From Desulfobacteraceae bacterium 4572_130 (lineage in GTDB: Bacteria > Desulfobacterota > Desulfobacteria > Desulfobacterales > Desulfobacteraceae), in contig NBLN01000009.1 in NCBI GenBank assembly GCA_002084425.1, positions 1-64,000 on the forward strand: a stretch of DNA of 64,000 nucleotides, read 5' to 3'. A program made the translations under genes and the position numbers. Of this stretch, positions 11,170 to 30,074 are shown one piece after another. How positions within the stretch are numbered: the stretch's first letter is position 1; every line of letters starts with the position of its first letter. The notes under the pieces were generated by a model. That model was not told where the DNA came from. It saw only the letters and a program-made list of their open reading frames with translations, and made no database searches.

Positions 11170-11190
11170 TGCATCCTCCACTTTATGTTT

Positions 11191-11334: not shown

Positions 11335-11355
11335 AAAACTCTCCTTATATTACTA

Positions 11356-12528: not shown

Positions 12529-12541
12529 CTATTATTCCTCC

Positions 12542-13651
12542 CTAGGATTTATCTATAACTTCTATATTTTTGTCCTTAATATTTTTCCTTTGTTTTTTTT
12601 CTTTAGTTTCCTCAGTTTCTTTTTTTGCCTGCTCAAGGGCTTTTTTTATTTCAAAATTAATAGCTGATTTTTTTTCTTGAGTCATTTTTTCTTTTTGAAC
12701 AGATAATTTATCATTCATCTCATCTGTTAGAGCAGTTTTGGTATTTTCTACAGCTGTTTTTAATTCTTTGTCTGCAAGAATATCTTTTTGTTTTGAAATA
12801 GCATAGATTCCAGTTAAAAGAACGGGCCACAAGCTTACAATTATTGGCACTGCTCCTAATGCTTGGGATGTTAAAGCAGGAGCTGATGTTGTACCTAAGT
12901 CCTCACTCATACCAATTTTTGAAAAATCATATTTTGAAAGATAAAGCCAGTTTGTACCTCCCATCTCATGTTCGCCATAAAGATATTCTTTGTAATGCCC
13001 GGGATATTTATTAATTCTTTTCCAAGCAATTTTAATAAGTTCCTTTCTTTTACCAAATGTTATAGCCTCAACAGGACATGATACAACACACCCTGGAAGT
13101 TCTCCCTTATCAATTTTTGGTTTACACATGGTACATTTTACTACTTTAGGAGAAGTAGGATTATTATACTCATAAGCTGGTATGTTAAAGGAACAGGCAA
13201 TCATGCAGTATCGACAGCCAACACAAAGGGAAGCATCATAAACCACTGCTCCTGTTTTATCTTTTTTTAAAGCCTTAACAAAACAAGCAGAGGCACAAGC
13301 AGGTTCAAGGCAGTGATTGCATTGTTTTTTTACAAATACAGCAGGTTTATCAGATTTTGGAGTAAAACGATTAACAACAGTAAATGCTTTTTCATCTGTT
13401 CTACGATTTAAATCCAGAATAGAAAGATCATCAAAGGATTTGGAAGGGGTTGGAAGGGAGTTTGTTTTATTACATGCTTTTTCGCATTTTCGACACCCAA
13501 TACATCTTGTTGTGTCATGAAGCACTCCAAAACTATCTGGATAACCTTTAAACTGCTTGTTTGAAGCAGCATATATCTTATTTCCAGTCAGTGTAGATGC
13601 TCCCAGGGCTGCACCCATCCAGCCCAGGAATTTTCTCCGGGATATTCCCAT
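12542..13651 (-). CDS. hmcB: HmcB: periplasmic four-cluster ferredoxin subunit, Tat-exported
   Basis: 369 residues. A twin-arginine signal ([16 protein letters not shown]) sends the folded protein to the periplasm. Cys motifs for four [4Fe-4S] clusters follow in HybA/DsrO order: [35 protein letters not shown], and CTMCKPKI...CVVSCP. A hydrophobic helix near residues 265-285 and a long Lys/Glu-rich coiled tail follow, so the protein is probably membrane-anchored. It should carry electrons between HmcA haems and the NrfD-like HmcC. GAGGTGG precedes the ATG. The 115-nt gap to hmcA holds a hairpin that may adjust relative expression. Confidence 0.92.
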
Positions 13652-13677
13652 ATTTCCACCTCAAAAGTTAATGGCAT

Positions 13678-13703
13678 GGTAAAAGCTCTGTAAAGCTTTT
13701 GCC
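13678..13703 (-). promoter_or_regulatory. Intercistronic hairpin between hmcA and hmcB
   Basis: GGTAAAAGCT and AGCTTTTGCC form a stem of about 10 bp (one G-T pair) around a short CTGTA loop, in the 115-nt gap between hmcA and hmcB. No T run follows on the transcribed strand, so it is more likely an mRNA-processing or stability element, giving more HmcA than the membrane subunits, than a full terminator. Confidence 0.5.
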
Positions 13704-13766
13704 AGTTATCTATATTTTAAATTTCAACTTTTTATTAAATTGCCAAAGTTATATTTATTTTTTCAG

Positions 13767-15374
13767 TTATTTCTTTATCTTTTCATGGCAGGATATACAA
13801 TCAGTCCCAACTGGAGTTTTAATATTCATTTTATTATGGCATGAAATACACTGTCCATGATATGCAGCCTTTAAATCAGGTTTTTTACTGCCATGCTTGC
13901 CTTGTTTGTTGTGGCAGGATTGACATTTTACAGGTGTTAAACTTGATGGACTGTTATGATGACAACCCATACAAAGTGTTTTATCATTTTTATGAAAGGA
14001 TTTAGCTAATCTGCTTTTTTCAGAATTGATTTTTAATTGATTAAAAACTTTTAAATGTGGGAAATTAACTGGTTTATATTCATTAGATAAGCTTGCAATA
14101 ACTACTTTTTCAGGAATTTTTTTACTGATTTCATTATAGGACTTTAATCTAGTATTTGCAGTTTTATCAGCAAGCTTCACCATTTTATCCATATCTTTTA
14201 AAGAATTAATTGTAATTTGACTTTTATCAACCTCATGGCATTGTGTGCAGGTCATATTGGAAAATTCTTTTTCAGGTATTTTGCTGTGACATCCTGCACA
14301 TTGTTTTTCATTTTTTCTTTGATTATGACAAGACACACAACTGTGCTCAGTTTCCCGGTTGTGCATGGCAGATTCAAGAGAAATAAAATCACCTTTTGTG
14401 TCACCACCCACTGTATGACAATCCCTACAGCCTTTTAAAGATTCATGATGGCATGATTTACAACTTTTTACTGAAGTTTCATGGAATTTATGATTAAAAG
14501 CTACTGGATTCATGCTTGAATTTATCAGTTTTTGAGATAATTTTGTATTATCATTATATCCTGTAATTAAAACATGATCAGGCTGATTTCTTTTTAATCG
14601 TGGTATTTTAGTTAATGTTTTAATTTTTTCCTGCTCTATTGTACTATGACATCCTTTACAGTTTGTTGGGCCTCCTGTCTTTTTTTCAATTTTAAGGGAT
14701 TCATGGCAATTAACACAGGCATTATGCGAAGCTTCCTTAATTGATGTAACATCTTTTGTACTTTCTAAAGTATGACAATAGATGCAGGATTCTTCTTCCC
14801 CTTTCTTGTAATAAATTGTTTTTGATTTTTCATTAAAAACATGGTGGCATGCTTGGCAGTTAGTGCCATTCTTAGATGGGATTATTTTTGATTGTTCATG
14901 GGTATAGTGAAGTGATCTATCAAAATCAATTGCTTTCCAGGAAGAATCTGTTTTTATTTGTGAATTATGGCAGGCACGACATTCTTCTGTTACAGGTCCG
15001 GCTTTTATTTTTTCAGCCTTTTTTTCTATATGACAGGAAATACAGTTTTTATGGTATATTTCCATATCAATTTCTAAAGTGGAATTTTCTTTTCGTTTAA
15101 ATTTAAATATAAATGAATCCTTGTTTTTTAAATGACAGGTACTGCAATCTTCTTGTTTTGTTAATATCTCTATATGACGGTCATGAAGAAAAGTTACCCC
15201 ATGCATGGCTTCACTGCCGGGAACATTTAGAAGATCAATAGTAATTATATCTGTTCGTTTATTTTGTAATTCTTTTGTTTCTGCACCTGCAATAACCAAA
15301 GTTATTATTAAAATTAATAATACAAAAATACATGTAATAAAATGTCTTTTTCTAACAGAATGAAGTTTTACCAT
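13767..15374 (-). CDS. hmcA: HmcA: hexadecahaem high-molecular-weight cytochrome c
   Basis: 535 residues with an N-terminal export signal (basic RKRHF, then a hydrophobic helix about 13-30). I count exactly sixteen CxxCH haem motifs, from CSTCH to the last CISCH, matching the 16-haem HmcA of Desulfovibrio in both haem number and length. It is the periplasmic electron entry of the Hmc complex, accepting electrons from type I cytochrome c3 and hydrogenases in known systems. It is the first gene of hmcABCDEF and has its own promoter region (15419-15473). A terminator for the upstream hdrCB unit lies at 15657-15689, so hmc is a separate transcript. Confidence 0.95.
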   Translation of the reverse strand: MVKLHSVRKRHFITCIFVLLILIITLVIAGAETKELQNKRTDIITIDLLNVPGSEAMHGVTFLHDRHIEILTKQEDCSTCHLKNKDSFIFKFKRKENSTLEIDMEIYHKNCISCHIEKKAEKIKAGPVTEECRACHNSQIKTDSSWKAIDFDRSLHYTHEQSKIIPSKNGTNCQACHHVFNEKSKTIYYKKGEEESCIYCHTLESTKDVTSIKEASHNACVNCHESLKIEKKTGGPTNCKGCHSTIEQEKIKTLTKIPRLKRNQPDHVLITGYNDNTKLSQKLINSSMNPVAFNHKFHETSVKSCKSCHHESLKGCRDCHTVGGDTKGDFISLESAMHNRETEHSCVSCHNQRKNEKQCAGCHSKIPEKEFSNMTCTQCHEVDKSQITINSLKDMDKMVKLADKTANTRLKSYNEISKKIPEKVVIASLSNEYKPVNFPHLKVFNQLKINSEKSRLAKSFHKNDKTLCMGCHHNSPSSLTPVKCQSCHNKQGKHGSKKPDLKAAYHGQCISCHNKMNIKTPVGTDCISCHEKIKK

Positions 15375-15696: not shown

Positions 15697-15790
15697 TTTT
15701 ATATAAAAGGACTTATAATTAATATTTTTTGATGTTTTGTTGTAAGACAAACCAGGAATTAAAAACTAGATCTGGCTTATGGGAGTTATT
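15697..15790 (+). repeat. Dispersed repeat, copy C
   Basis: Another copy of the ~95-bp family: TTTATATAAAAGGACTTATAA at the left, TGTTTTGTTGTAAGACAAA in the centre, CTAGATCTGGCTTATGGGAG at the right. The AGATCT end overlaps the stop codon of the minus-strand hdrB gene (15786-15788). Confidence 0.8.
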
Positions 15791-16673
15791 TTAATTTGTT
15801 TATTATTGAATCTTTTGAAATACTAGAAATTGATGCAACCTGTTTTGCATCAAATCCCATACAAAGAGCTAATAACTGATTATAATCAAAAACTGGAATA
15901 TTGTATTTATCAGTATTTTCAGTTTCATTTAATTTTTTTTGAATATTATCAAGATGCATAAGGCAGGTAATACAGGAAACAACAATAAATTCTGCTTTTG
16001 TTTCATCAATTATAGCATCAAGTTTAGCTTTGGCAAATTCAGTTGCCTCATTAGGCGAATTGTTTGTAAACCCTCCTGCTCCACCACAACACGAAAGTTC
16101 ATGGCTGTAAGTGTCAACTGTTGCACCCAAGGCTTCAGTTAATTGTCTTAATGCTTTAGGCTCTCTTGGAGAATCTTCAAAACCAACAACTTCACTTGGG
16201 AAAAGTGTATGACACGGATATTGAATTACACCATGAACACCTTTAAGATTTTTTTTAATAGCTTTAGAAATTTTTTCTGTTCCTACATCTTTATAAAGTA
16301 TTTTAGATACATGGTGAACCTTTGTTTTGCATTTAAGTTTTCTGCCTGTTAATTCCAGAAGTTCATTAATGCGGGCAAGTTTTTTTTTATCATGAACAAG
16401 GTGATCCCGTCCCATTCTAAGGGAGCTGTAGCAGGACCCGCATTCAACCATAATATCTAAGCCCTTTGCTTCTGCAATAGAAAGATTCCACCCACTTGAT
16501 GCAAGCCATGATTCATCATCTGTTGAAGGAAAGGATCCAAAAGCAGGGCAGCATACATAACCTTCTGTATCTAGAAGTTGTACACCAAGTTCAGGCATTG
16601 TTAATCTGATTGCCTGCTCAACATCAGGCCTTATTGCCGGGGTATTACAACCAAGAAAAAGACATAATTTCAT
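15786..16673 (-). CDS. hdrB: HdrB-like heterodisulfide reductase subunit B
   Basis: 295 residues with two CCG domains. The first has FLGCNTPAIRP, GYVCCPAFGS and CGSCYSSL, the second YPCHTLF, LSCCGGAGGF and VSCITCLMHL. These cysteines bind noncubane [4Fe-4S] clusters that reduce disulfides such as heterodisulfide or a DsrC trisulfide. Length is normal for the family. An AGAGGAA ribosome site overlaps the end of hdrC, two nt upstream, so the pair is translationally coupled. The stop codon falls inside repeat copy C. It probably worked with the HdrA at 19593-22712, from which it is now separated by the TPR insertion. Confidence 0.9.
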   Translation of the reverse strand: MKLCLFLGCNTPAIRPDVEQAIRLTMPELGVQLLDTEGYVCCPAFGSFPSTDDESWLASSGWNLSIAEAKGLDIMVECGSCYSSLRMGRDHLVHDKKKLARINELLELTGRKLKCKTKVHHVSKILYKDVGTEKISKAIKKNLKGVHGVIQYPCHTLFPSEVVGFEDSPREPKALRQLTEALGATVDTYSHELSCCGGAGGFTNNSPNEATEFAKAKLDAIIDETKAEFIVVSCITCLMHLDNIQKKLNETENTDKYNIPVFDYNQLLALCMGFDAKQVASISSISKDSIINKLK

Positions 16674-16675
16674 TT

Positions 16676-17179
16676 TTATTCCTCTTTAAACATATAATCG
16701 TTTTCTTTAACTACTGGTGTTTTCATGAGCATTTCCTGATAAAGTTTCATTTGTTCAGGCATATTAGTTATGGTTTTAAGTTCTGGCAATCCTAAGGATT
16801 TTCTTAATTCCACATTCATACCAACAGCCTGAGTATATCCCCTTGTATAAATTTCAACAATAGAGGGTGGAACCCTTGTTTCATCATTTGTACTTTGCCA
16901 TTTTCTAATGGCAAGTATAAGTTCAAAAGGTTTTACATCCATAGGACACATTTCTTCACATCTTGAACAGGAAACACATGCCCAAGGAGTATCTTCATCA
17001 TAAAGTTCATCTTCCAATCCATAAACAACCATTCTTGCAAGATTTCTCACTAAAAGCGGAGGCTCTCCATTAGATGCAGGACAGCCTGATATGCAGGTAC
17101 TGCAATTAAAACAATGAAGAAGATCTTTTGTATTATATATTTCCTTCCATAAATCTTTGTTTGATTGGCTAAAATCCAT
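16676..17179 (-). CDS. hdrC: HdrC-like heterodisulfide reductase subunit C
   Basis: 167 residues with two [4Fe-4S] motifs, CFNCSTCISGCPAS near residue 23 and CVSCSRCEEMCPMD near residue 68, in the order typical of soluble HdrC. It relays electrons between HdrA and HdrB in the cytoplasm. AAAGGAAT precedes the ATG. It is coupled to hdrB (two-nt gap). The nearest upstream gene on the strand is an accessory coiled-coil protein, not hdrA, so its promoter may lie in the 78 nt before it or transcription may continue through the insertion. Confidence 0.9.
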   Translation of the reverse strand: MDFSQSNKDLWKEIYNTKDLLHCFNCSTCISGCPASNGEPPLLVRNLARMVVYGLEDELYDEDTPWACVSCSRCEEMCPMDVKPFELILAIRKWQSTNDETRVPPSIVEIYTRGYTQAVGMNVELRKSLGLPELKTITNMPEQMKLYQEMLMKTPVVKENDYMFKEE

Positions 17180-17257: not shown

Positions 17258-17737
17258 CTAAAATTCATGTAGTACTTGTTGTTTTAATAATGCAGCTTCT
17301 TGTTCTTTTAAAAGTTTTTCTTTTATCTCTAACTTTTTCAATGCTTGATTCTCAGATTGTATAATAATATTACCTTTCTTATCTTTTTGAGTGCTGTTAG
17401 TTTGAGTACTTTTAAGCCGTCTAATTAATTTTCGATTTTTCAATTTTTCGTTATTAATTTTTTTTAACTTATCTGGAATTTCTAATATTTTTATACGCTT
17501 ATGAGAGCTTTGAAATTGTTTTTTTATTTGGGAATTAATTTCATTCTCGAATTTTTTTAATCTATCTTTTTTACAATAGTCTTTTTCGATAAGATCAATT
17601 TTTTTCACTATTTTTTTAAATTCTTCTTGTTTTGCAAATTGATTATCAAGATATATATATGCAGTTAGAATTGCTGCAATCATACTCATTATATAGTATA
17701 TCATGGATAATTCTGATATTTTTGTTAAAATTTTCAT
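17258..17737 (-). CDS. Unknown membrane-anchored coiled-coil protein
   Basis: 159 residues: one hydrophobic helix at about 12-30, then a Lys/Glu-rich sequence with heptad character to the C-terminus (for instance LEIKEKLLKEQEAALLKQQ). No enzyme motif is visible. Its ATG overlaps the stop of the TPR gene by four bases (ATGA), so the two are co-translated and probably form a membrane-tethered scaffold. The pair sits between hdrA and hdrC with repeats on its upstream side and looks like an accessory insertion. Confidence 0.65.
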   Translation of the reverse strand: MKILTKISELSMIYYIMSMIAAILTAYIYLDNQFAKQEEFKKIVKKIDLIEKDYCKKDRLKKFENEINSQIKKQFQSSHKRIKILEIPDKLKKINNEKLKNRKLIRRLKSTQTNSTQKDKKGNIIIQSENQALKKLEIKEKLLKEQEAALLKQQVLHEF

Positions 17738-19164
17738 TTCTGAATTTTAATCTTTTTTATAATTACATTTAAGTTTTGTTTCGTTTTAATAGTATATGAA
17801 TGGTTATCACCTAATTCTTTTTTAAGTATGTTAAAAGACATCTGAAAATAATTATAAGCTTTTTTATAATCACCTATTTTCCCCCAAGTATTCCCAAGGT
17901 TATTCCAAATGATAGCAACTTTAATTGATTCTTGACCATAAATAATTAAATTAATCTCTAATGCTTGTTCATAGTTTTCAATTGCCTTTTCATATTTGCC
18001 CAAAGCTTCCCATGCCTCACCAAAATTATTCCAGTCTCTTGCTACTGCTGGATGTTCAGGTCCATAGGTTTTTAAGTCAGAATTTAAAGCTTTTTCAAGA
18101 TATTCAACTGCTTTTTCATATTTGCCAAGGAATCGCCATGCTGAACCAAGATTATTCCAAACTTTTGCTACTGCTGGATGTTCAGGTCCATAGGTTTTTA
18201 AGTCAGAATTTAAAGCTTTTTCAAGATATTCAACTGCTTTTTTATATTTGCCAAGGGATTGCCATGTTAAACCAAGATTATTCCAAACTTTTGCTACTGC
18301 TGGATGTTCAGGTCCATAGGTTTTTAAGTCAGAATTTAAAGCTTTTTCATAATATTCAATAGCCTTTTTATATTTGCCAAGGAATCGCCATACTGAACCA
18401 AGATTATTCCAATCCCTTGCTACATCAGGATGTTCATCACCATAGGTTTTTAAGCCAGAATTTAAAGCTTTTTCAAGATACTCAACTGCTTTTTTATATT
18501 TGCCAAGAGTAATAAAAATTAAACCTAATTGATTTAAATAAACACCATTTTCAGGATTATATTCACAAGCTTTTTCAAAGTAAAATAAAGCATTTTTATA
18601 TTCAAGTTTTAGTTCTTTAACTAGTCCTAATTCATAGGAACTTTGAGCAAGTTTATTATCAGCAATTTGATTTTTCTTTAAATCCTGTTTAAATGATTGT
18701 TCCAGTAATTTTTCAGCACCATCAAAATCACCATTGGATAATTTTTCATTTGCCTTTGCTATTAACTTGTCATCACCTGATCTTGCAACTAATCTTTTTT
18801 CAATTTCCTTATATTTGACTTTCCATTCTGCTATAAGTTTTTCTTTGTCTTGAATTGCAATATCTTTTTCATCAAGAAGTTCTGCTAATCTTTCATAAGC
18901 CCTTGAAGGGATATCAATTTTTGCATCATTTATTGTTATTGTACTATTATGCTCAACAATTACAGTTTTTATAAGTGAATACAAAAATAGTATTAAAGCA
19001 GCTATCATGATTGTTATAGCAGTCATTGTTATTGTACTATTATGCTCAACAATTACAGTTTTTATAAGTGAATACAAAACTGGTATTAAAGCAGCTATCA
19101 TGATTGTTATAGCAGTCATTTTTGCAACTTTGATTGCTGGATTATTTTTATCATTATTTGTCAT
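17734..19164 (-). CDS. Membrane-anchored TPR protein (kinesin-light-chain-type repeats)
   Basis: 476 residues. The N-terminus contains two near-identical hydrophobic helices, each within a 31-residue unit starting MTAITIMIAALI, made by a 93-bp tandem duplication. A short coiled coil follows (KEKLIAEWKVKYKEIEKRL), then about seven TPRs of 42 residues. The central ones are almost identical (DLKTYGPEHPAVAK, WNNLGSAWRFLGKY), of the kinesin-light-chain/TPR_12 kind. Such repeats mediate protein-protein contact; no catalytic domain is present. The near-identity of neighbouring repeats points to recent expansion and makes this region prone to assembly collapse. Confidence 0.85.
   Translation of the reverse strand: MTNNDKNNPAIKVAKMTAITIMIAALIPVLYSLIKTVIVEHNSTITMTAITIMIAALILFLYSLIKTVIVEHNSTITINDAKIDIPSRAYERLAELLDEKDIAIQDKEKLIAEWKVKYKEIEKRLVARSGDDKLIAKANEKLSNGDFDGAEKLLEQSFKQDLKKNQIADNKLAQSSYELGLVKELKLEYKNALFYFEKACEYNPENGVYLNQLGLIFITLGKYKKAVEYLEKALNSGLKTYGDEHPDVARDWNNLGSVWRFLGKYKKAIEYYEKALNSDLKTYGPEHPAVAKVWNNLGLTWQSLGKYKKAVEYLEKALNSDLKTYGPEHPAVAKVWNNLGSAWRFLGKYEKAVEYLEKALNSDLKTYGPEHPAVARDWNNFGEAWEALGKYEKAIENYEQALEINLIIYGQESIKVAIIWNNLGNTWGKIGDYKKAYNYFQMSFNILKKELGDNHSYTIKTKQNLNVIIKKIKIQK
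18934..19119 (-). repeat. 93-bp tandem duplication inside the TPR gene
   Basis: Two consecutive 93-bp copies (starting TGTTATTGTACTATTATGCT at 18934 and 19027) differ at only a few bases. They encode two copies of a 31-residue segment containing one membrane helix, so the duplication keeps the frame and turns a one-pass anchor into a two-pass hairpin. Confidence 0.9.
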
Positions 19165-19592: not shown

Positions 19593-22500
19593 TTACAAAG
19601 CCATATCAATCATAGCCATAATTTGTTTATCACTAAATCCCATTATTTCACTGGCATTATTCTGGCAGACAACTGCACACATACCACATGCCTGACATGC
19701 TGCATTATCAACAATAATTTTATTAAGTGATTCATCATATGTCCTTGCATTATAAGGACAAATATCAACACATCTTTGACATTGCACACATAAAGAATGA
19801 TGTACCTTTGAAATTGTACCAGCTGTATAAATTGTTTCATTACAAAGACAAGCATGAGCTTTTTGACTGGCTGCTTCAGCCTGTAAAATCGCATCTTTTA
19901 AAAACATAGGCGAATGAGCAGTTCCTGCAAGAAAAAATCCTGTTTTTTGAAATTCAATGGGACGCCATTTTGAATCAGCTTCAACAAAAAATCCATCTTC
20001 ATTAATTGGAACATTAAATATTTTTCCAAGTTGTTTATTAGAAGTTTCAGAAGCAATTCCAGTTGAAAGTATTAAAAAATCACAAGATATTTTAACTTGT
20101 GAATTTAAAACATGTTCCTTAAATGCAACAACAGGTTTATCATCTATAATTTCAACTTCAGGTTTATTATTAAGAGTATAATTTACAAAAATAATTCCTT
20201 GTGCCCGTGCCTTTGTATAATATTGTTCAAAAAAACCATAAGTCATAATATCTCTGTATAAAATAAAAATTCTTATATCAGGATTTTTTTCCTTTATTTT
20301 AAGAGCATTTTCAATTGCTCCTATACAGCAAATACGACTGCAATATCCTTGTTTTTCCTTTTCTTTTCCAATTTCTCCAGAACTAATTTCTCTTGACCCA
20401 ACACATTGAATCATAACAATATTTTCAGCATTTTCTATGTTAATTTCTTTTGTTTCAAGTCCTTGTTTAAGTTCATTTTGTGTTAAAATTTTATCTGAAT
20501 TTTTATATTCATATTCTTGTGTTTCACTTTTTAAAGCACCTGTTGCAAGTATTGCAGCACCATGATTTAAATATGTACTTTTTTCTTTAATATTATCTGT
20601 AATTCTTGATTTAAAATTTCCAAGACTTCCCTTAGTTTCCGTTACTTCACAATTTAAATGAATAATAATATTTTTATGTTCAAAAACTTTAATTTGAAGA
20701 TCCTTTCCCATTGAAACAGGTTTAAGCCCCTCTATTGTATTCTCAATATGATTTCCTGCATATCCTCCAAGTTTGTCTGATTTTTCTATTAAATGAACAT
20801 TTATATTTTTATTCGCAAGAGCAAGTGCTGAATACATTCCAGCAATTCCTCCACCAACAACAAGTACAGTTTGATTAATTTCAAGGGGTTCAACATAAAG
20901 AGCAGGTTTAAATTTTAGATTTTCAATTCTTGCTTTAATTTCATTTAATGCCTGTTTTGTCCAATTAATATCTGGCATGGTTTCATCAGTTTGAACACTT
21001 TTATAAATAAGAGATGCAAGATCAAATATTTCAATTAAAGAAGATATAAATCCTGCTTTTTTTGCAAGATTTTTTAAGGATTTTCTATAAATAAAAGGCT
21101 GGCAAAGCCCCATTAACAAACGATTGCATTTTGATTTTTCAAGTAAATTAATTAGCTCTTGTTTTCCATTATCATTGCAAGCTGTATCAATTATATTTAC
21201 TTCTCCAACTTGATTTAAGGTCTGCAATTTTTTTTTAAGCATATTAAAATCAATATTGGTTTTACTTTCTTTTTCACTGCATTTACATAAAACAACAGAT
21301 ATAAGAGGCAGATCTCTTTCAACAGTTTTTGGTTCAGAAATCACCTTTTGTTCAATAACTGCAACATCTAATGTTGATAAAAGAGAACTTGCCTTTCCAG
21401 CTGCTGCAATACCACTTGATACAGCTTCACTAATATCAGTTAAACCCATTAAAGAACCACATATAAACACACCAGGCTTATTAAGTTCTATTTTGTTATA
21501 TTCCTTGGTTGGAATAAGTCCTTGAGAAGTTAATTTAAAATTAAAAAGCTTGGCTATTTGTTCATAATCTTGTTTAAAAATTTGTCCTGTAGATAAAACA
21601 ACCATATCATAGGTTTCAGTAAAAAATTCATTTGTTTTAGGATCAAAATATCTAATTAAAAGGCTTTTGTCTGGATTAAGCATAACTCCCTGAACCCGAC
21701 ATCTAATAAGTTTTACATTATGTTCATTAACTGCTTTTTCCTTATATCTATAAAAGTCTTTTCCAAATGTGCGCATATCCATATAAAAAATAGTTGTTTC
21801 AACATTTTTTCCTGCTTTTTCCTTGGCAAGAACTGCTTCCTTTAGGGCAAACATGCAGCAAATAGAAGAACAATAATCTCTTTTTTGCCTTTTATTTCTT
21901 GAGCCCATGCACTGAATCCATGCAATTTTTTCAGCTGGTTTGTTATCAGATGGACGCTTTATTATACCTTTATTATTATAATTGGTATTATCATAAGTAC
22001 CAGTTCCACTTATAATTCGTTCAAACGCAAGAGAAGATACTACATCTTTAGATACTGCATAGGATTTTACATCTTCAAATTCTTTTGTATTATAAAGTTT
22101 GACACCAGAGGCAAGAATAATAGCATGAACTTCTTTTTCAAGGATTTCATGTTCTGCATTAAGATTAATAGCATTTGTTGGACAGATTTTTACGCATTCA
22201 TCACATTTAGTACAAATATCCATGTCTATTAAAAGCATTTCAGGAGTGCTATATGGAACAGGCTGATAAACAGCTTTTCGTTTAGTTAATCCATGATTAA
22301 ATTCATCATGTTTTTCAATGGGACAAACCTTAATACATTTACCAAGTCCATTACATTTATCTGTATCTATATATCTTGCTTTTTTTTGAAGCTGAATTTT
22401 GTAATTGCCTGCATCACCTTCAACTTTTACAAGTTTTGTAAAAGGCAGTATTTCAATATTTTCATGGAACAAACCTTTACGCATACAGTACTGGGAGGCA

Positions 22501-22712
22501 TATTCCCTGCCAATCATAGGAAGTATTCTGCACATACCACAATGATCTGTTGGAAATTGATGATCAAGTTTTGCAAGAATTCCACCAATTTGAGGTGATG
22601 AATCAGTTAGTAAAACTTTGTATCCAATATCAGCAAGCTCTAAACTTGCCTTAATTCCAGAAATTCCTGCACCTGTAACAAGCACTGTACCTGTCTGCTT
22701 TTTTTCTGCCAT
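19593..22712 (-). CDS. hdrA: Double-length HdrA-like flavoprotein
   Basis: 1039 residues comprising two HdrA units. Unit 1: FAD motif VTGAGISGIKASLEL (about 13), CGMCRILP, a ferredoxin pair in which the first motif reads CNGLGKCIKVCP (Leu where the second Cys is expected) and the second is intact (CTKCDECVKICP), then CMGSR...YCSSICC. Unit 2: an HdrA N-terminal-like linker domain (about 460-640), FAD motif VVGGGIAGMYSALAL, CVGSR...YCSRICC, and a C-terminal 2[4Fe-4S] domain (CVQCQRCVDICP, CQACGMCAVVC). The HdrA family performs flavin-based bifurcation or confurcation. The partners HdrC and HdrB follow beyond the TPR insertion. AGCAGGAG precedes the ATG. Confidence 0.9.
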   Translation of the reverse strand: MAEKKQTGTVLVTGAGISGIKASLELADIGYKVLLTDSSPQIGGILAKLDHQFPTDHCGMCRILPMIGREYASQYCMRKGLFHENIEILPFTKLVKVEGDAGNYKIQLQKKARYIDTDKCNGLGKCIKVCPIEKHDEFNHGLTKRKAVYQPVPYSTPEMLLIDMDICTKCDECVKICPTNAINLNAEHEILEKEVHAIILASGVKLYNTKEFEDVKSYAVSKDVVSSLAFERIISGTGTYDNTNYNNKGIIKRPSDNKPAEKIAWIQCMGSRNKRQKRDYCSSICCMFALKEAVLAKEKAGKNVETTIFYMDMRTFGKDFYRYKEKAVNEHNVKLIRCRVQGVMLNPDKSLLIRYFDPKTNEFFTETYDMVVLSTGQIFKQDYEQIAKLFNFKLTSQGLIPTKEYNKIELNKPGVFICGSLMGLTDISEAVSSGIAAAGKASSLLSTLDVAVIEQKVISEPKTVERDLPLISVVLCKCSEKESKTNIDFNMLKKKLQTLNQVGEVNIIDTACNDNGKQELINLLEKSKCNRLLMGLCQPFIYRKSLKNLAKKAGFISSLIEIFDLASLIYKSVQTDETMPDINWTKQALNEIKARIENLKFKPALYVEPLEINQTVLVVGGGIAGMYSALALANKNINVHLIEKSDKLGGYAGNHIENTIEGLKPVSMGKDLQIKVFEHKNIIIHLNCEVTETKGSLGNFKSRITDNIKEKSTYLNHGAAILATGALKSETQEYEYKNSDKILTQNELKQGLETKEINIENAENIVMIQCVGSREISSGEIGKEKEKQGYCSRICCIGAIENALKIKEKNPDIRIFILYRDIMTYGFFEQYYTKARAQGIIFVNYTLNNKPEVEIIDDKPVVAFKEHVLNSQVKISCDFLILSTGIASETSNKQLGKIFNVPINEDGFFVEADSKWRPIEFQKTGFFLAGTAHSPMFLKDAILQAEAASQKAHACLCNETIYTAGTISKVHHSLCVQCQRCVDICPYNARTYDESLNKIIVDNAACQACGMCAVVCQNNASEIMGFSDKQIMAMIDMAL

Positions 22713-22736: not shown

Positions 22737-23879
22737 CTATTTTACCTGTCCTGTAACTTCAACAAACTCATCATGATCAAAAATAGTTAATGGCTGTGCC
22801 TCATCAAAAGCTCTTCCTGCCTGATAATCAAAACGATCTTGGGTTTTATTTGCAACAGTTCTAAAAACAGGCATAAGATCAATATCATTGGGGCAGGCAC
22901 TAGTGCATTGACCACAGCCAACACAAAATAAACTCATATGAGACATACGGGTTAAATGATAAAATGTTGTGTCAGCAGGCATTTTAAGCGTTCCAAAACT
23001 ATCTGCCCATGCCATATATTGATCTCCATTGTGCCTAAATGTATCTGTTACAAAAACGCATTCTTTGCAATAGCATACAGGGCATGCAACCCTGCAATTA
23101 TAGCAGTTAATGCAGGCAGCAAATCTTTTTTCAAGATCATCAAAACTATTGCTTGATTCTCTGTATTCTTCAAAAGCTTTATCTCTTGCATTAATTCGTT
23201 CTTTTATAAGTTTTTTTACTGTATTACTGGAACTTGCTGGAACAGAGTCATTTAAATCAATTCCTGCTTTTTCAAGGGCTTTATCACCTTTTAAACTAAG
23301 GCTTTCAATATAAAGAGCATCAGAGCCAGTATCAATAATACACAATCTTAAATCAACATTATCAGGTCTTGGAAATTCGCAGATTTTACAAGCTTTGGAA
23401 ATATCATAATCATTATTTTGAGTATTTCCTGCAACACCTTTTTCAATAAAGGATTCAGATGTTTCACCTTGTTCTTGAAATTTTAAAAAATCAAGATTTT
23501 CATATCTTCCAATACAATCAATTCCAATAAGTAATACATCATCAAGATTTGCCTGTTTAAGTTTAACAAGTTCAACTAAGGCTCTGATTTCGCAGGATCT
23601 TAAAATCATTGCAACTTTTCTGTTTGAAGGTTTTGCTGTAATTGAAGATGCAATCTTTGCTCCATTTACAGGAACAACCGGGGCAAAGGGATCAATAGAA
23701 TCAATAGCTTTAATATTGGAATTTTTCGTAACAAGAGTTTGCATTACTCCTTTATTGGGCTGGGTCATGGGAGCAAGCAGGGCGTCTATTGCATTTTTTT
23801 CAATCATTTTTTTGAAAAAATCAGCCAGTTCCTTATTAAGTTCACCTTTTTTAAAGGATAATTTTATGGATTTTGACAT
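22737..23879 (-). CDS. FdhB/FrhB-like iron-sulfur flavoprotein
   Basis: 380 residues related to the beta subunits of F420-dependent formate dehydrogenase and hydrogenase (FdhB/FrhB), also found as partner proteins of HdrA/MvhD in sulfate reducers. Visible features are an N-terminal segment with NGAKIASSI and AMILRSCEIRALVELVKL, a CIGRYEN stretch, a CKICEFPRPDN motif, and a C-terminal Fe-S region, CINCYNCRVACPVCYCKEC plus CVGCGQCTSACPNDIDL. It probably holds FAD and several [4Fe-4S] clusters and injects electrons into the neighbouring HdrA. The electron donor is not evident; no formate dehydrogenase or hydrogenase catalytic gene is in the window. GGAGAAC precedes the ATG. Confidence 0.75.
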   Translation of the reverse strand: MSKSIKLSFKKGELNKELADFFKKMIEKNAIDALLAPMTQPNKGVMQTLVTKNSNIKAIDSIDPFAPVVPVNGAKIASSITAKPSNRKVAMILRSCEIRALVELVKLKQANLDDVLLIGIDCIGRYENLDFLKFQEQGETSESFIEKGVAGNTQNNDYDISKACKICEFPRPDNVDLRLCIIDTGSDALYIESLSLKGDKALEKAGIDLNDSVPASSSNTVKKLIKERINARDKAFEEYRESSNSFDDLEKRFAACINCYNCRVACPVCYCKECVFVTDTFRHNGDQYMAWADSFGTLKMPADTTFYHLTRMSHMSLFCVGCGQCTSACPNDIDLMPVFRTVANKTQDRFDYQAGRAFDEAQPLTIFDHDEFVEVTGQVK

Positions 23880-23946: not shown

Positions 23947-24012
23947 TTTTTTTATGTTTTGTTATAAGACAAATTAAGAATCCAAAACCAGATCTGCTTT
24001 ATGGGATTTATT
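23947..24012 (+). repeat. Dispersed repeat, copy D (supplies a C-terminus)
   Basis: The 3' two-thirds of the repeat family (TTTATGTTTTGTTATAAGAC ... CCAGATCTGCTTTATGGGA). The minus-strand mvhD reading frame runs into it: the last ten codons, SHKADLVLDS, and the TAA at 23974 are repeat sequence. The 5' part of the element is missing. Confidence 0.75.
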
Positions 24013-24414
24013 AAGAGGGCTTGGGCCAAGTTTAATAAGCTTATCAGTCATTTCATTTACAACTTCCTGCAGCATATTTCCTTCACTTGCTGCAATCCAG
24101 CGAAGCCAGAATCGCCTTTCATCAATCCCATATTGTTTAAGAATTTCTGTAAGCATTGCAACTCGCCTTCTTGCTTTTAGATTACCATTTATATAATGGC
24201 AGTCTCCGGGCCAGCATCCGCCAATTAACACTCCATCAACACCATTTAAAAAAGCTTTAATTACATATTTGGGATCAACCATTCCACTGCACATAACCCG
24301 AATGATTTTAATATTAGGGGGATATGACAGACGAGATGTACCAGCTAGATCAGCAGCAGTAAAAGTACACCAGTTACAAAAAAATCCCACTATTTTTGGT
24401 TCAAACTCGCTCAT
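23974..24414 (-). CDS. mvhD: MvhD-like hydrogenase/HdrA iron-sulfur subunit
   Basis: 146 residues. It starts MSEFEPKIVGFFCNWC; the longer frame upstream was rejected because AGGAGG lies just before this ATG. Conserved cysteines of the FrhD/MvhD [2Fe-2S] family are seen in FFCNWCTFTAADLAG, VMCSGMVD and GGCWPGDCHYINGN. MvhD normally hands electrons from a hydrogenase or dehydrogenase to HdrA; here it lies directly after the HdrA-GltD chimera and before the FdhB-like gene, so it probably bridges those two. The last ten residues are encoded by repeat copy D, an acquired tail. No selenocysteine codon is present. Confidence 0.9.
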   Translation of the reverse strand: MSEFEPKIVGFFCNWCTFTAADLAGTSRLSYPPNIKIIRVMCSGMVDPKYVIKAFLNGVDGVLIGGCWPGDCHYINGNLKARRRVAMLTEILKQYGIDERRFWLRWIAASEGNMLQEVVNEMTDKLIKLGPSPLNKSHKADLVLDS

Positions 24415-24427
24415 CTTATAACTCCTC

Positions 24428-27400
24428 CTAGTTGAGTAATAATCCATCAATTTCAGCAAAAATCTGCTTATCAGTAAAATGTCTCACTTTTGCAGCACCG
24501 CTTGGGCAATGACCTGCACAACTTCCGCAACCCTTGCATACAGCACTGTTCACTTCTGAGACATTTTTAAATTCATTGTATTCAATAGCTGAATAAGGAC
24601 AAAGTCCAATACATACTTGACATCCCACACAAATATCTGGATCAATATAGGAAATCATTGGTGGAACTTCAACTTCTCCTTTTGCACTTAATGCAAGGCA
24701 TTCTGCTGCTGCTCCCTTTGCCTGAGCTACAGTATCTGGAATATCTTTTGGACCCTGGCATGCTCCTGCAAGAAAAACTCCGCTTGATGGTGTGGAAACA
24801 GGTGCAAGTTTAGGATGTTCTTCCTGAAAAAAACCATCAGCTCCAATACCAATTCCAAATTTACGCATAACCTCTTCAGCATTGGATCTTGGTTCCATTG
24901 CTGTACAAAGAATAACCATTTCAACTTCAATAGAAAGCATTCTTGCTGAAAGTGTATCTTCTGCTGTAACTGTAAGAATTCCATTGCTGTCTTGTGTAAT
25001 GGAACCTGCTTTTCCCCTTATCATTTTAACGCCTTCTTCCTGAACTTTTTTAAAGAATTCTTCATATCCCTTTCCAAAACACCGCATATCAATGTAAAAA
25101 TTATAAACTATAGTGTCATGTCCGCATTTGTCTTTTAAAAGATGAGCATATTTTAAGGCATACATACAGCAGGTGCGGGAACAATATTCATGATAATTAA
25201 TATCACGACTTCCAATGCAGTGAAGAATTGCAACGCTTTTAGGAGGATCTGTAAATTTCATGGGATCATTTAAATCACGCTTTAAAAATTTTCCGGAAGT
25301 TGGGCCTGTAGCATTTGATAATCGTTCAAATTCAAGGTTTGTAAAAACATTTGTATATTTGCCATAGCCATATTGTTTCATAGGGCTTGGATTAAGGGGA
25401 TCAAACCCTGTAGCAATAATTATGGAACCAGCATCAATAATTTGTTTTTCATCTTTTACATTATGATCAATGGCTTCAGCTTTACATTGATCAACACAAA
25501 GCTTGCATTCACAACACCCTCCACAATTAAGGCATTTTAAAGCATCTTTTTGTGCTGATGTTTCATCAAGTCCAAGATCAACTTCATTAAAAGAATTTTT
25601 TCTTGCATCAGGTTCAATAAAAACAGGTTTACCACGCTCAACAATATTTATATCTTCTGGTATAGGTAAAAAATCTTGTTTTTCTTGATTTGAAATTTGC
25701 TGCTCTCTATTTTCCTGTTCTTTTTCTTGTTCAAATAATTCCATTTTATTATTTAAATATCTTTCAATAGCTTTAACAGCTTTATGACCTCCTGCAATTG
25801 CCTCAATTACTGTAGCAGGTCCTGTTACAGAATCACCTGCTGCAAAAACTCCTGGTTCTGATGTCTGCATAGTAACAGGATTAACATTAAAAGTTCCCCA
25901 GGATGTTAATTTAATATTTGTATCTTTTATAACAGGTGCTGTTTCAACTTTTTGACCAATAGCAGGAATTATCATATTACAGTGAATAATATATTCACTA
26001 TTCTCAATTGGAACAGGTCTTCGTCTGCCGCTTTTATCACTTGGGCCAAGTTCATTTTTAATACATTCAATACCAATAACTTTATTATTTTCAGTTATTA
26101 CTTTTTTAGGTCCTACAAGAGTTATAAATTCAATGCCTTCCTCTTTTGCACCTTTAATTTCTTCATGATCTGCCGGCATTTCTTTTTCTGTTCTGCGATA
26201 AACAATTGATACAGTTTCAGCTCCTGATCGTATGGCAACTCTGGCTGCATCCATTGCAACATTTCCACCGCCAATAACAACAACATGTTTTTTTGCAGAT
26301 CCAGCATTTTCAAGATTTTCTCTGCGTAAAAAAGGAACTGCATCCACAACTCCAAAAGCATCTTCATTTTCAATGTTCATAGGCACAGGCACATGAGCAC
26401 CTATTCCAAGAAATACTGCATCAAATCCCTGCTCTTTTAAACTTGTCAGAGTGAAATCTTTTCCTAAAAAAGTATTTGTTTTAAGTTCAATACCTGTGGA
26501 AAGGATATTGTTAATTTCCTTATCAAGTATAACAGGAGGAAGTCTGTAATCAGGAATACCTGTTCTAAGCATTCCACCTGGTTTTTCCATTCCTTCAAAA
26601 ATTGTTACTTTAAATCCTTTTAATCTTAAATAATATGCAACAGTAAGTCCTGCAGGGCCTGAACCAATAACAGCAATGTGCTTATCTATTTCCTTAACTT
26701 CAGGTTTTGGCACATCTTCAAATTTTCCATTATCAGCAGCAAATCTTTTTAAATCCCTAATTGAAACAGGGGAGTCTATTAATGCTCTTCTACAGTCAGT
26801 TTCACATGGATGGGGGCATACTCTTCCAAGAACTCCGGGCAAAGGAAGACGTTCCATAATAATATTAAGTGCTTGTTGATAATTACCCGCTTTAACCATT
26901 TGTACATACCCTTGTACATTTGTTTGTGCAGGGCATGAAGTTTTACATGGTGAAGTTGTTCTTTTATCAATAACATATCTTACAGGTACAGCCTGAGGAA
27001 AAGAAATATAAATAGCTTTTCTCATTTTTGTATTAACATCCCATTCATTGGGCATTTCAACAGGACATACTTTTGCACAGTCTCCGCATCCTGTACAATT
27101 AGATTTTATATATCTTGCTTTTTTATTTACAGTAACTTTAAAATTTCCTACAAAACCACTAACATGTTCAACCTCAGCATAAGTCATAAGCTCAACATTT
27201 TTTTCTTGAGCAACGGCAACCATTTTAGGAGTACCAATACATGCTGCACAATCTAAGGTTGGAAAAGTTTTATCATATTGTAACATATGACCGCCTACTG
27301 TTGGCTGTTTTTCAATTAAATATGCTTTAAAACCTGAACTTGCTATATCAAGAGAAGCCTGCATCCCTGCAATTCCTCCCCCAACAACAATAGTATTGGA

Positions 27401-27826
27401 ATTTACTGAAAATTTACTTGGTATAAGTGAGTCTTGATAGGAAACTCTTTTAAGTCCTGCTCTTACAAGAATTCTTGCTTTTTTAGTTGCTTTATCTTCA
27501 TTTTCCGTAACCCATGAGCCATGTTCTCTTACACAAACCATATGAAAAGCATAATAAGGATTAAGCCCTGCCCGCTGACACGCTGCTCTAAATGTTTTTT
27601 CATGCATTCTAGGTGAGCATGAAGCAACAACTACTCTTGTAAGATTATATTCTTTTATATCTTTTTCAATAAGTTCCTGACCTGGATCAGAACACATAAA
27701 CAGATAATCTCGGGAAACAGCAACATTTGGGAAAGTGGCTGCATATTCTGCAACCTCTTTTACCCGAACTCTGTAGGCAATATTAATACCACAATGACAG
27801 ATATAAAATCCAATTCGTTCAGACAT
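24428..27826 (-). CDS. HdrA with an embedded GltD/NfnB-type NAD(P)H module
   Basis: 1132 residues. Residues 1-300 are the HdrA front: ICHCGINIA, VVASCSPRMHEKTF, FAD motif VVGGGIAGMQASLD, TLDCAACIGTPKMV, CTGCGDCAKVCP. From about 310 to 710 a glutamate-synthase-small-subunit-like segment is inserted: CKTSCPAQTNVQGYV, RVCPHPCETDCRRA, FAD motif AVIGSGPAGLTVAYYL, NAD(P)H motif VVIGGGNVAMDAARVA, AAGDSVTGPATV. HdrA then resumes: CLNCGGCCECKLCVDQC, CIGSR...YCSRTCC, and the two-cluster ferredoxin (CVGCQVCIGLCP, CKGCGSCAGHCP). The architecture suggests NAD(P)H entering an HdrA bifurcation site. It overlaps the upstream gene by 8 nt; AGGAGAACTATC precedes the ATG. Confidence 0.9.
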   Translation of the reverse strand: MSERIGFYICHCGINIAYRVRVKEVAEYAATFPNVAVSRDYLFMCSDPGQELIEKDIKEYNLTRVVVASCSPRMHEKTFRAACQRAGLNPYYAFHMVCVREHGSWVTENEDKATKKARILVRAGLKRVSYQDSLIPSKFSVNSNTIVVGGGIAGMQASLDIASSGFKAYLIEKQPTVGGHMLQYDKTFPTLDCAACIGTPKMVAVAQEKNVELMTYAEVEHVSGFVGNFKVTVNKKARYIKSNCTGCGDCAKVCPVEMPNEWDVNTKMRKAIYISFPQAVPVRYVIDKRTTSPCKTSCPAQTNVQGYVQMVKAGNYQQALNIIMERLPLPGVLGRVCPHPCETDCRRALIDSPVSIRDLKRFAADNGKFEDVPKPEVKEIDKHIAVIGSGPAGLTVAYYLRLKGFKVTIFEGMEKPGGMLRTGIPDYRLPPVILDKEINNILSTGIELKTNTFLGKDFTLTSLKEQGFDAVFLGIGAHVPVPMNIENEDAFGVVDAVPFLRRENLENAGSAKKHVVVIGGGNVAMDAARVAIRSGAETVSIVYRRTEKEMPADHEEIKGAKEEGIEFITLVGPKKVITENNKVIGIECIKNELGPSDKSGRRRPVPIENSEYIIHCNMIIPAIGQKVETAPVIKDTNIKLTSWGTFNVNPVTMQTSEPGVFAAGDSVTGPATVIEAIAGGHKAVKAIERYLNNKMELFEQEKEQENREQQISNQEKQDFLPIPEDINIVERGKPVFIEPDARKNSFNEVDLGLDETSAQKDALKCLNCGGCCECKLCVDQCKAEAIDHNVKDEKQIIDAGSIIIATGFDPLNPSPMKQYGYGKYTNVFTNLEFERLSNATGPTSGKFLKRDLNDPMKFTDPPKSVAILHCIGSRDINYHEYCSRTCCMYALKYAHLLKDKCGHDTIVYNFYIDMRCFGKGYEEFFKKVQEEGVKMIRGKAGSITQDSNGILTVTAEDTLSARMLSIEVEMVILCTAMEPRSNAEEVMRKFGIGIGADGFFQEEHPKLAPVSTPSSGVFLAGACQGPKDIPDTVAQAKGAAAECLALSAKGEVEVPPMISYIDPDICVGCQVCIGLCPYSAIEYNEFKNVSEVNSAVCKGCGSCAGHCPSGAAKVRHFTDKQIFAEIDGLLLN

Positions 27827-30074
27827 GATAGTTCTCCTGTGATTCTAAAACTAATTCAGCAACATCTTTCACTTTTATCTTATCCTGTAATTTAAGTTCT
27901 ATTACAGCATCATTAAGCATTTTCATGCAATAAGGACAAGCTGTAGCAATTATATTAGAACCTGTTTCAATAGCTTGTTTTATACGCAGTACTCCAAAAC
28001 TTTCATTAATTGAAAATTTTTCCCAAGGACCACTGCTTCCACCGCCACAGCAAAGACTTGTTGTTTTATTATTATACATTTCAACAAGTTCTAATTTGGG
28101 TATTGCCTTTAAAATATTTCGTGGTGCATTATAAATTCCATTATGCCTTCCAAGATAGCATGGATCATGAAAAGTAACTTTTAAATCAATTTTATTTACT
28201 GGTTTAATAGTTCCTTTTTTAATAAGTGTTTCTAAAAGTTCAACATAATGTTCAATTTTTACAGAATTTGCTAATTTCTTATATGATTTTTTAAAACTGT
28301 TCATGCAATGAGGAGAAAAAGTGAGTATTTTTTTAACATTATTATTTAAAAACATATCAGTATTTTGTTTAGAAAGGTCTGAAAATATATGTTTAACACC
28401 CATTACATTTGAATGTTCTCCACAGCAGTTTTCTTGACTGCCAAGTGTTCCAAAAGAAACTTTAGAATGTTTAAGCAATTTTATTAAAGCATTTCCTGCT
28501 TTTTGTGAATTTTTCAAGACACTTGTGTCATGGGCAATAGTACAACATGTAAATAAATAATATTCATTATTTTTATTAAATTCAGGTATTGATTTATTCC
28601 AATTAATACGATCTTGTTTTTTGCCATTCCAGGGATTGCCATTAATTTTTAAACTTTTAATTGGATTATTTAAATGCTTTGGCAGTTTATTTTTTTCAAC
28701 ATTTTGTTGCCGTACAGATTTAATTATATCAATTATTTCAATTCCTCTGGGGCAGTGTTCAGTACAGGAATTACAAGTAACACACTTCCAGCAAGCTTTA
28801 TCAACATTAAAATCGTCACATGTATTAAGGGAAATATTACGAATTATCTGGCGGGGGCTAAAATACGAAACCTGATTCCAAGGGCAGACTCCAGAACAAG
28901 TGCCGCATTGCATACACCCCATAAAATTCTCATTAACATCTTTTGTAATAGTTTGAAAATCAACTTGTGATTCTTTTAATGCTTTTTCTTTTAAAGTTGT
29001 TAAAAAAATTGCAAGGGGTCTGTAAAAAAGATGTGATAATTTTCCAAAGGGAAGCATTATACAAAGCATGCCAACGCAGATGGCAACATGGATTGTGTAC
29101 ATTGTGTAGGTTGCAATAGGAAAACCTGAAATCCTGAAAAAATGAACAAGAATTCCTGTAAAAGCAATTGCAAATAATAATATAAGAAAAAACAGATCTG
29201 TAAAATCAGAATACCTATGAAGTTTTTCTTCCTTTAAATATAACCTGCTGTACAGCATATTTCCTGAAATAAGCATTAATACAATAGTAGCATAATATCC
29301 AAAAATTCGCGTAGGATGCCAAAACGGATGTATAATATCAGTTTGAAATACTTCAAGAAAACCAATTACAAGAACTTCCATAACAACATAACCTGAAAAC
29401 AGCAGAAAATGCCGCATCCATCTGCTGCTTGGACCTGTTCCGCATTTTCGCCATCGTTTTTGTGTTAAATAATGAAGTAAAAAAATTGGCGCTTGAGTGA
29501 TATAGGTTAAAATAGGAATTTTTGTACCTTTCATAATTTTAAGATACATTCGAAACCCATTTGTAATAAGCAAAATTCCAAGTATGGCAAACATGATTTG
29601 ATCGCCAATATGAACATAATGTGCAGGAGCAAAGGAATTTAATGCTACGCGATCAGTAATAACAGGCCCATGTCCAAATAAAAAAAGCAAAATAATGCTA
29701 AATGCTACAACAAAAAAAGCACCAACTTCCCATTTTGGTGATGTGTAAAATTTATGGGCAAGACCTGTAAAATCAAATTTTGTTGTAAGAAAGCGTCTTG
29801 CTGCCATCATTGTTTCAGCAGGTTCTGCACCTCTTGGACAATCTATATTACAGTCTCCACAATAATAACACAGCCATGGTTCAGGAGATTCAAGTAATTT
29901 GTCTTCAAGTCCCAGTTGAAGATAACGATAAATTTTGCGCGGGAAAGAATTAGTGCCGGTTGACAAGGGACATGCTGCACTACAGTTTCCACACTGCATG
30001 CATAATTCCATATCCTTTGCTCCAAGTTTTTCTATTTCTTTATATAAATTCTGGTTGATATTATTTTTCCCCAA
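27819..30074 (-). CDS. QmoC-HdrD membrane fusion protein
   Basis: 751 residues. Residues 1-100 are HdrC-like (CMQCGNCSAACP from Cys25, CYYCGDCNIDCPRG). Residues 115-370 form a cytochrome b-like membrane domain with about six helices, as in QmoC. Residues 385-751 are HdrD-like: CMQCGTCSGVCPW, CVTCNSCTEHCPRG, then CCG motifs FTCCTIAHD, NCCGEHSN, HDPCYLGRH, SLCCGGGSSGPW. It would link menaquinone to cytoplasmic disulfide or HdrA chemistry in one chain. The start is TTG at 30074, chosen because CTAGGAG stands 7 nt upstream and the first Cys motif follows closely. It is the first gene of the hdr operon; its 5' end is duplicated at 31064-31190. Confidence 0.9.
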   Translation of the reverse strand: MGKNNINQNLYKEIEKLGAKDMELCMQCGNCSAACPLSTGTNSFPRKIYRYLQLGLEDKLLESPEPWLCYYCGDCNIDCPRGAEPAETMMAARRFLTTKFDFTGLAHKFYTSPKWEVGAFFVVAFSIILLFLFGHGPVITDRVALNSFAPAHYVHIGDQIMFAILGILLITNGFRMYLKIMKGTKIPILTYITQAPIFLLHYLTQKRWRKCGTGPSSRWMRHFLLFSGYVVMEVLVIGFLEVFQTDIIHPFWHPTRIFGYYATIVLMLISGNMLYSRLYLKEEKLHRYSDFTDLFFLILLFAIAFTGILVHFFRISGFPIATYTMYTIHVAICVGMLCIMLPFGKLSHLFYRPLAIFLTTLKEKALKESQVDFQTITKDVNENFMGCMQCGTCSGVCPWNQVSYFSPRQIIRNISLNTCDDFNVDKACWKCVTCNSCTEHCPRGIEIIDIIKSVRQQNVEKNKLPKHLNNPIKSLKINGNPWNGKKQDRINWNKSIPEFNKNNEYYLFTCCTIAHDTSVLKNSQKAGNALIKLLKHSKVSFGTLGSQENCCGEHSNVMGVKHIFSDLSKQNTDMFLNNNVKKILTFSPHCMNSFKKSYKKLANSVKIEHYVELLETLIKKGTIKPVNKIDLKVTFHDPCYLGRHNGIYNAPRNILKAIPKLELVEMYNNKTTSLCCGGGSSGPWEKFSINESFGVLRIKQAIETGSNIIATACPYCMKMLNDAVIELKLQDKIKVKDVAELVLESQENYHV

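Follow-up and report, generated by a model that had tools for sequence, protein, structure and literature searches.

The stretch analysed here (the window) comprises 64,000 nucleotides of Desulfobacteraceae bacterium 4572_130 (assembly GCA_002084425.1, contig NBLN01000009.1, positions 1 to 64,000), and carries a gene whose product combines HdrA with a GltD/NfnB-like NAD(P)H module. An earlier note, made from the letters alone, had read the chain as HdrA, then the module, then HdrA again, and this order is borne out by domain profiles and alignments to solved structures. The protein is best understood, with a probability of about one half, as a bacterial short-form type III HdrA (of the HdrL kind) that provides a membrane-anchored Hdr complex with its NAD(P)H port. 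The gene and its parts are as follows:

24428-27826, minus strand: type III HdrA / HdrL-type gene of 1132 amino acids (coordinates with the stop codon), with an ATG start and an uninterrupted frame
26960-27826, minus strand: HdrA residues 1-289, with the N-terminal domain, the first part of the TrxR-like flavin adenine dinucleotide (FAD) domain and the first half of the inserted ferredoxin domain (aligned to the HdrA of 8rvu, 5odc, 7bkb and 9sfi, with a fold match)
25517-26959, minus strand: residues 290-770, the circularly permuted NAD(P)H module of GltD/NfnB type (profile, structure-sequence and fold matches)
24431-25516, minus strand: HdrA residues 771-1132, with the second half of the inserted ferredoxin domain, the remaining FAD domain and the C-terminal 2x[4Fe-4S] domain (alignment and fold match)

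The HdrA of solved methanogen complexes covers residues 3/4 to 288/289 and 770/771 to 1129/1130 (E ~1e-182 to 1e-208), and the alignment to Methanothermococcus thermolithotrophicus HdrA (5odc) breaks between residues 291 and 293 of the latter, with approximately 481 residues added at this one point. Residues 289-790 resemble NfnA, StnC, NfnL and GltD of solved structures (E 1e-64 to 1e-121, the latter value to 9n5u/9bov), and the insert is also matched by NCBIfam PRK12771 and gltA, with Pfam in agreement. The earlier note was right that the insert splits HdrA mid-chain, but its position can be corrected to the inside of the inserted ferredoxin domain, between the first (C244-C254) and second (C771-C781) Cys motifs. 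The N-terminal domain, the TrxR-like FAD domain with its inserted ferredoxin domain and the C-terminal ferredoxin domain of HdrA are all present. The NCBIfam equivalogs for methanogen HdrA/HdrA2 were not reached (761 bits against a cut-off of 1100), though these models are narrow and archaeal and the result denies that exact identity only.

An AlphaFold2 model run with 38 sequences had a mean predicted local distance difference test score of 85.4 and a predicted template modelling score of 0.76. Structural comparison by VIA-align placed the HdrA core (residues 140-1051) on 8rwn at 1.2 Å over 425 residues (Z 54) and the whole HdrA, outer domains included, on 5odi at 4.6 Å over 642 residues (Z 54). 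Similarly, the insert (289-786) fitted 9bov at 1.9 Å over 474 residues (Z 49) and StnC at 1.9 Å over 467 residues (Z 48), and residues 288-693 fitted NfnL at 1.6 Å over 402 residues (Z 39). Because the model superposes on HdrA and on the StnC, NfnABC and NfnL structures, the folds of both modules are predicted to be retained within the fusion, and domain search and structure prediction, proposed with the earlier note as its check, recover the HdrA and GltD-type modules over the residue ranges expected.

Within the chain, the following motifs and ligands can be distinguished:

27065-27097, minus strand: first Cys motif of the HdrA inserted ferredoxin domain (C244, C247, C250, C254), invariant in 38 aligned homologues
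26747-26749, minus strand: K360, equivalent of StnC K170, ligand of the FAD-proximal 4Fe-4S cluster, where NfnB has Glu; Lys in 42/42 short and 12/12 long forms (PMC10482914)
26648-26665, minus strand: FAD Rossmann motif of the insert, GSGPAG (G388-G393), its glycines and P391 invariant
26192-26272, minus strand: pyridine-nucleotide Rossmann motif of the insert, GGGNVA (519-524), and YRR (R544, R545), a GxGxxA/YRR pattern as in the NADPH-using NfnL and StnC
25517-25621, minus strand: permuted tail, residues 736-770, homologous to the canonical GltD/NfnB N-terminus and supplying C765 and C768 (profile search)
25325-25327, minus strand: E834, corresponding to E356 in the HdrA of M. thermolithotrophicus, close to flavin N5, in 42/42
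25151-25153, minus strand: K892, corresponding to K409 in the HdrA of M. thermolithotrophicus, in 42/42

The cluster cysteines of HdrA and GltD at 244, 247, 250, 254, 294, 298, 337, 341, 345, 765, 768, 771, 774, 777 and 781 are invariant among the 38 aligned full-length relatives, as are eight further cysteines between 1066 and 1107. Both dinucleotide motifs, the full ligand set and the structural matches to the NADPH-binding StnC/NfnABC proteins lend good support to the built-in NAD(P)H site that the earlier note had proposed.

The same note had recognised both dinucleotide motifs correctly, but had placed a Cys-rich N-terminus at the head of the module, and the CxxC in question (C765/C768) stands at the end of the insert. 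A profile of this tail (residues 736-770, R.SF.EV.LG..E.A..EALKCLNC) matches residues 24-60 of ordinary GltD proteins encoded by the window's genome and by relatives (E 7e-9 to 4e-11; best E 0.58 among 1214 decoys). Because the tail matches the N-terminus of ordinary GltD, the insert is, judged by its sequence, a circularly permuted GltD in which the RCLxC segment that leads a normal GltD/NfnB comes last in the module. In the structures of StnC and NfnABC, the RCLxC segment is likewise C-terminal, and a literature search found no paper that names this arrangement a permutation, which is weak evidence of absence. Through the permutation, only three residues separate C768, which by homology binds the GltD cluster, from C771, which binds the HdrA ferredoxin cluster, and the cluster chains of the inserted and HdrA modules therefore very likely adjoin.

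The ligands beside the two flavins bear on which of them bifurcates. For StnC, the GltD-like domain is reported to hold a non-bifurcating FAD, with Lys170 as a ligand of the proximal cluster in place of the Glu of NfnB (PMC10482914). The NfnB-type Glu was not found in the short forms (K360 in 42/42), and the module has the two features of the StnC type, the Lys ligand and an RCLxC segment C-terminal to the Rossmann domains; the likeness to NfnB drawn by the earlier note thus fails at the cluster ligand beside the inserted FAD. Since this ligand is Lys360, as in the non-bifurcating StnC, the inserted FAD probably only relays electrons, and since E834 and K892, marks of a bifurcating HdrA flavin, are invariant, the HdrA flavin would be the one that bifurcates. 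The simplest reading, by analogy to StnABC, is of one bifurcating flavin (HdrA) fed by a relay flavin (GltD).

The gene is part of an operon, with the neighbouring genes listed here:

27819-30074, minus strand: QmoC/HdrC-like membrane domain fused to HdrD (4Fe-4S and two CCG domains), HdrF type, 751 amino acids, directly upstream in many relatives
23974-24459, minus strand: MvhD (FlpD family), overlapping the HdrA 3' end (PF02662, E 7e-51), downstream in 33 relative loci
22737-23879, minus strand: FdhB-like Fe-S protein, 380 amino acids, similar to FdhB of 9t1s (1.5e-28) and 8rvu (1.2e-26)
19593-22712, minus strand: double HdrA-like protein, 1039 amino acids, with HdrA over 7-392 (E 9e-98) and HdrA-like 6tjr over 615-952
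16676-17179, minus strand: HdrC-like (TIGR03290, below cut-off)
15786-16673, minus strand: HdrB-like, two CCG domains (TIGR03288, 234 bits, below cut-off)

The order HdrF-type (QmoC-HdrD), type III HdrA, MvhD, FdhB-like, double HdrA, HdrC and HdrB recurs in Desulfobacterales, in full in four loci (L016, L026, L032 and L033) and in others as far as the contigs reach; the count for MvhD refers to the 33 loci whose flanking sequence was available. The variant found in L018, L053, L054 and L057 has HdrC-HdrB immediately ahead of HdrA-MvhD. Inside the Hdr operon of the window (17258-19164) there are additionally a tetratricopeptide repeat protein and a 159-amino acid protein without a Pfam or NCBIfam match; in the relatives, no genes lie between the double HdrA and HdrC.

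Sequence and model establish the domain order, the full ligand sets, the permutation, the type of Lys ligand, the bifurcation residues and the conservation of the operon; the electron path, its direction and partners, and bifurcation itself we infer. A hydride from NAD(P)H would pass to the FAD of the inserted GltD module, from which single electrons would run through the [4Fe-4S] cluster bound by Lys360, and then through another whose ligand set C765/C768 complete, to the adjoining clusters of the HdrA inserted ferredoxin domain, finally reaching the HdrA FAD, the likely bifurcating flavin. From here, one branch may involve the C-terminal ferredoxin domain together with MvhD and the FdhB-like protein, and the other may lead through HdrC/HdrB or the HdrF-type subunit to a disulfide or menaquinone. 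A precedent for the NAD(P)H port is the purified MetFV-HdrABC-MvhD complex of Moorella, which reduced benzyl viologen with NADH (PMC5861303) and whose HdrA has the same kind of insert (PMC9430772). The NAD(P)H-driven bifurcation suggested by the earlier note is plausible, as both residues that flag a bifurcating HdrA flavin are invariant, but its confinement to one polypeptide is not supported, as the gene belongs to a conserved multi-subunit operon. A more extensive proposal is tentative and on balance doubtful, namely a membrane-anchored NAD(P)H-bifurcating Hdr complex conserved in Desulfobacterales, which would couple NAD(P)H oxidation to the reduction of menaquinone/disulfide and ferredoxin, with a NAD(P)H module in the form of an exchangeable cassette, circularly permuted and passed between HdrA genes. 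Its composition would be the HdrF-type QmoC-HdrD fusion, type III HdrA, MvhD, the FdhB-like protein, the double HdrA and HdrCB, which is put forward with the same reserve.

Several points weigh against a bifurcating NAD(P)H port. The usual ferredoxin exit for the low-potential electron is occupied by the insert, and HdrA homologues without bifurcation exist (PMC9430772). Further, the motifs fail to separate NADH from NADPH. The FAD motif reads GSGPAG and the pyridine-nucleotide motif GGGNVA (A524 in 42/42), and GxGxxA with YRR resembles NADPH enzymes, while the Moorella complex uses NADH; type III HdrA has been described as having GxGxxG rather than GxGxxA at the nucleotide site, with NAD inferred from GxGxxG (PMC12054007).

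The alternative that survives best, itself unlikely, is that NAD(P)+ takes the seat of ferredoxin, such that the insert would be the low-potential output and a mid-potential donor would enter via MvhD/FdhB-like or the second HdrA. The insert is located in the domain through which type I HdrA reduces ferredoxin, where blocked ferredoxin access has been proposed (PMC12054007), and the FdhB-like protein and MvhD of the same operon could form a second port; however, the sole biochemical precedent (Moorella) oxidises NADH, and no mid-potential donor enzyme, neither FdhA nor a hydrogenase, was found beside the FdhB-like gene (22737-23879). The accompanying detail, that HdrA would send one electron up to quinone/disulfide and the other down to NAD(P)+, or would work backwards by confurcation, is equally unlikely. 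It is less probable still that the complex is a non-bifurcating NAD(P)H:menaquinone or disulfide reductase with HdrA merely wiring electrons. A membrane subunit of b-type (QmoC-like) is encoded in the operon itself, and the homologues mentioned above set an example, but the invariant E834 and K892 are the residues by which bifurcating HdrA flavins are told from non-bifurcating ones. Two bifurcating flavins in one chain (NfnB-like FAD and HdrA FAD), as suggested for ANME-1 HdrA9-11 (PMC9012536), are very improbable. The Arg near N5 (R428, NfnB R201) is kept in 42/42, but is present in StnC and NfnB kinds alike and does not discriminate, StnC carrying the same Arg beside an FAD reported as non-bifurcating; no NfnA partner domain was found, and the suggestion is rejected on K360, as the proximal-cluster ligand is Lys in every short and long form compared and never the Glu of NfnB. 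The Lys ligand and the permutation together predict a relay role for the inserted flavin, with the HdrA flavin alone bifurcating, which argues against the published two-site suggestion. Finally, an assembly chimera or pseudogene is hardly conceivable: the source genome is a fragmented assembly, 80% complete, but no positive sign of either was found, and identical junctions in ~40 full-length relatives from three phyla (Desulfobacterota, Chloroflexota and Latescibacterota), with no stops and all ligands kept, rule out a chimera.

It should be noted that the earlier note would be refuted, as regards novelty, by a prior description of this insertion as a standard HdrA subtype, and such descriptions exist (PMC2702500, PMC9430772, PMC9012536, PMC12054007); the literature from 2009 on rules out a categorically new architecture. 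Strittmatter et al. (2009) gave the name HdrL to a protein of Desulfobacterium autotrophicum HRM2 in which heterodisulfide reductase and glutamate synthase are fused, encoded next to mvhD, and the name HdrF to an HdrCB-like protein with membrane segments (PMC2702500). The N-terminal TrxR unit of Moorella HdrA is interrupted by a GltD domain (PMC9430772), ANME-1 HdrA9-11 carry an NfnB-like insertion of 500 amino acids (2022; PMC9012536), and type III HdrA was defined by this insertion in 2025, modelled, and proposed to admit NAD(P)H through the ferredoxin domain (PMC12054007). The window protein agrees with type III HdrA in having GltD within the inserted ferredoxin domain of a HdrA otherwise of type I and equivalents of E356/K409 (E834/K892), and with HdrL in being an HdrA/glutamate synthase fusion followed by mvhD.

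Compared by description, HdrL shares the glutamate-synthase-type NADH module in HdrA beside mvhD, and the HRM2 genome also has HdrF membrane proteins like that at 27819-30074; HdrL, however, is said to be of a large type, with selenocysteine in two of three, whereas the window protein has no selenocysteine and consists of a single complete HdrA and the insert. Again by description, the type III HdrA of ANME-1/Bathyarchaeota (PMC12054007) and HdrA9/10/11 (PMC9012536) share the ~500-amino acid GltD/NfnB in the ferredoxin domain of a HdrA that is otherwise type I, with E356/K409 kept, and the window protein differs from these archaeal proteins in being bacterial and in its HdrF-MvhD-FdhB-HdrCB operon; its own pyridine-nucleotide motif reads GxGxxA. 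The HdrA of the Moorella thermoacetica MetFV-HdrABC-MvhD complex (PMC9430772, PMC5861303) likewise has its N-terminal HdrA unit interrupted by GltD and MvhD as a partner, but is 1487 amino acids long with two TrxR units and works with MetFV. The closest solved GltD modules are StnC and NfnA of the StnABC and NfnABC transhydrogenases (8oh5, 9bov, 9n5u), with the same Lys ligand and C-terminal CxxC, though these are fused to NuoG/FdhF-type domains rather than HdrA; StnC feeds a separate bifurcating flavin. Conversely, NfnB/NfnL of NfnAB (5jca, 4ylf) share the fold and the FAD and NAD(P) sites, but have the Glu ligand, are unpermuted and bifurcate themselves. What goes beyond the cited papers is the permuted GltD insert, the Lys360 ligand with its putative relay FAD, and the apparent exchange of inserts among HdrA genes. 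The analysis as a whole removes the claim to novelty, and the model for this widespread, little-studied class of HdrA becomes sharper.

The case for exchange comes from trees covering the sampled relative loci, which did not include sequences of ANME-1, Bathyarchaeota, Desulfobacterium HdrL or Moorella. In the HdrA core tree, the proteins of L040 and L041 form one clade with the window protein (support 100/99; core identity 83-84%), but their inserts (residues ~290-770) are only 46% identical to that of the window (25517-26959), with sharp drops at the module borders, and fall outside its insert clade; by comparison, L013 is ~80-86% identical to the window protein in core and insert alike. Constraining the insert topology to the core clade costs 155 log units (approximately unbiased (AU) test, p ~1e-54). 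Additionally, the inserts of short form L030 and long form L096 are 65% identical, versus 48% for the cores, and group together with support of 97/88 and 82/44 in two trees. The GltD module has thus probably been replaced at least once, i.e., exchanged between HdrA genes, which suggests that electron-input modules move between them. That the insert instead evolved at a strongly accelerated rate in one lineage is less likely, as the L040/L041 inserts are placed with other inserts (support 98/94). Recent gene conversion from the long form of the same genome is unsupported as the source of the L040/L041 inserts, which are 51-56% identical to that form. Since insertion-free HdrA (L038, L039 and L078) nests among the short forms in the core tree, the sequences point to either loss or several gains of the insertion.

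A scan of 395 sampled Desulfobacterota genomes found the short form in ~19, three of the matches being partial, and more than 100 long forms (~1480-1500 amino acids) among the matches listed, which match query residues 144-1045. In Chloroflexota, 14 of 201 genomes were above the cut, most with the short form. The nearest named relatives of the window come from Desulfococcaceae/Desulfobacteraceae. The window protein, at 1132 amino acids with one HdrA unit, lacks the second TrxR HdrA unit of the long (Moorella-type) form. The same genome also encodes a long HdrA-GltD fusion of 1477 amino acids (L069:3099-7529; C4:46098-50528), beside genes for methylenetetrahydrofolate reductase (metF), a MetV-type DUF5981 protein, mvhD and hdrBC-like genes, a setting that resembles the Moorella MetFV-HdrABC-MvhD complex. 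Many long fusions (L061, L066, L068 and others) have a single in-frame TGA that probably encodes selenocysteine, which has been reported for HdrL1/L3, and in insertion-free Chloroflexota HdrA a TGA, probably also selenocysteine, replaces the second Cys of LDCxAC (L038:3319-3321; also L037 and L078).

Genes for HmcF, HmcE, HmcC, HmcB and the hexadecaheme HmcA adjoin the Hdr operon (window 8975-15374) in an HmcABCEF-type cluster, with no separate HmcD seen among open reading frames of at least 120 amino acids in this interval. A further HdrA-type protein of 778 amino acids (window 396-2732) has its domains arranged in an unusual way and forms a very long branch in the HdrA tree. A GltD-type frame at L007 (G000:C3:127284-128552) has one in-frame TAA and likewise a very long branch.

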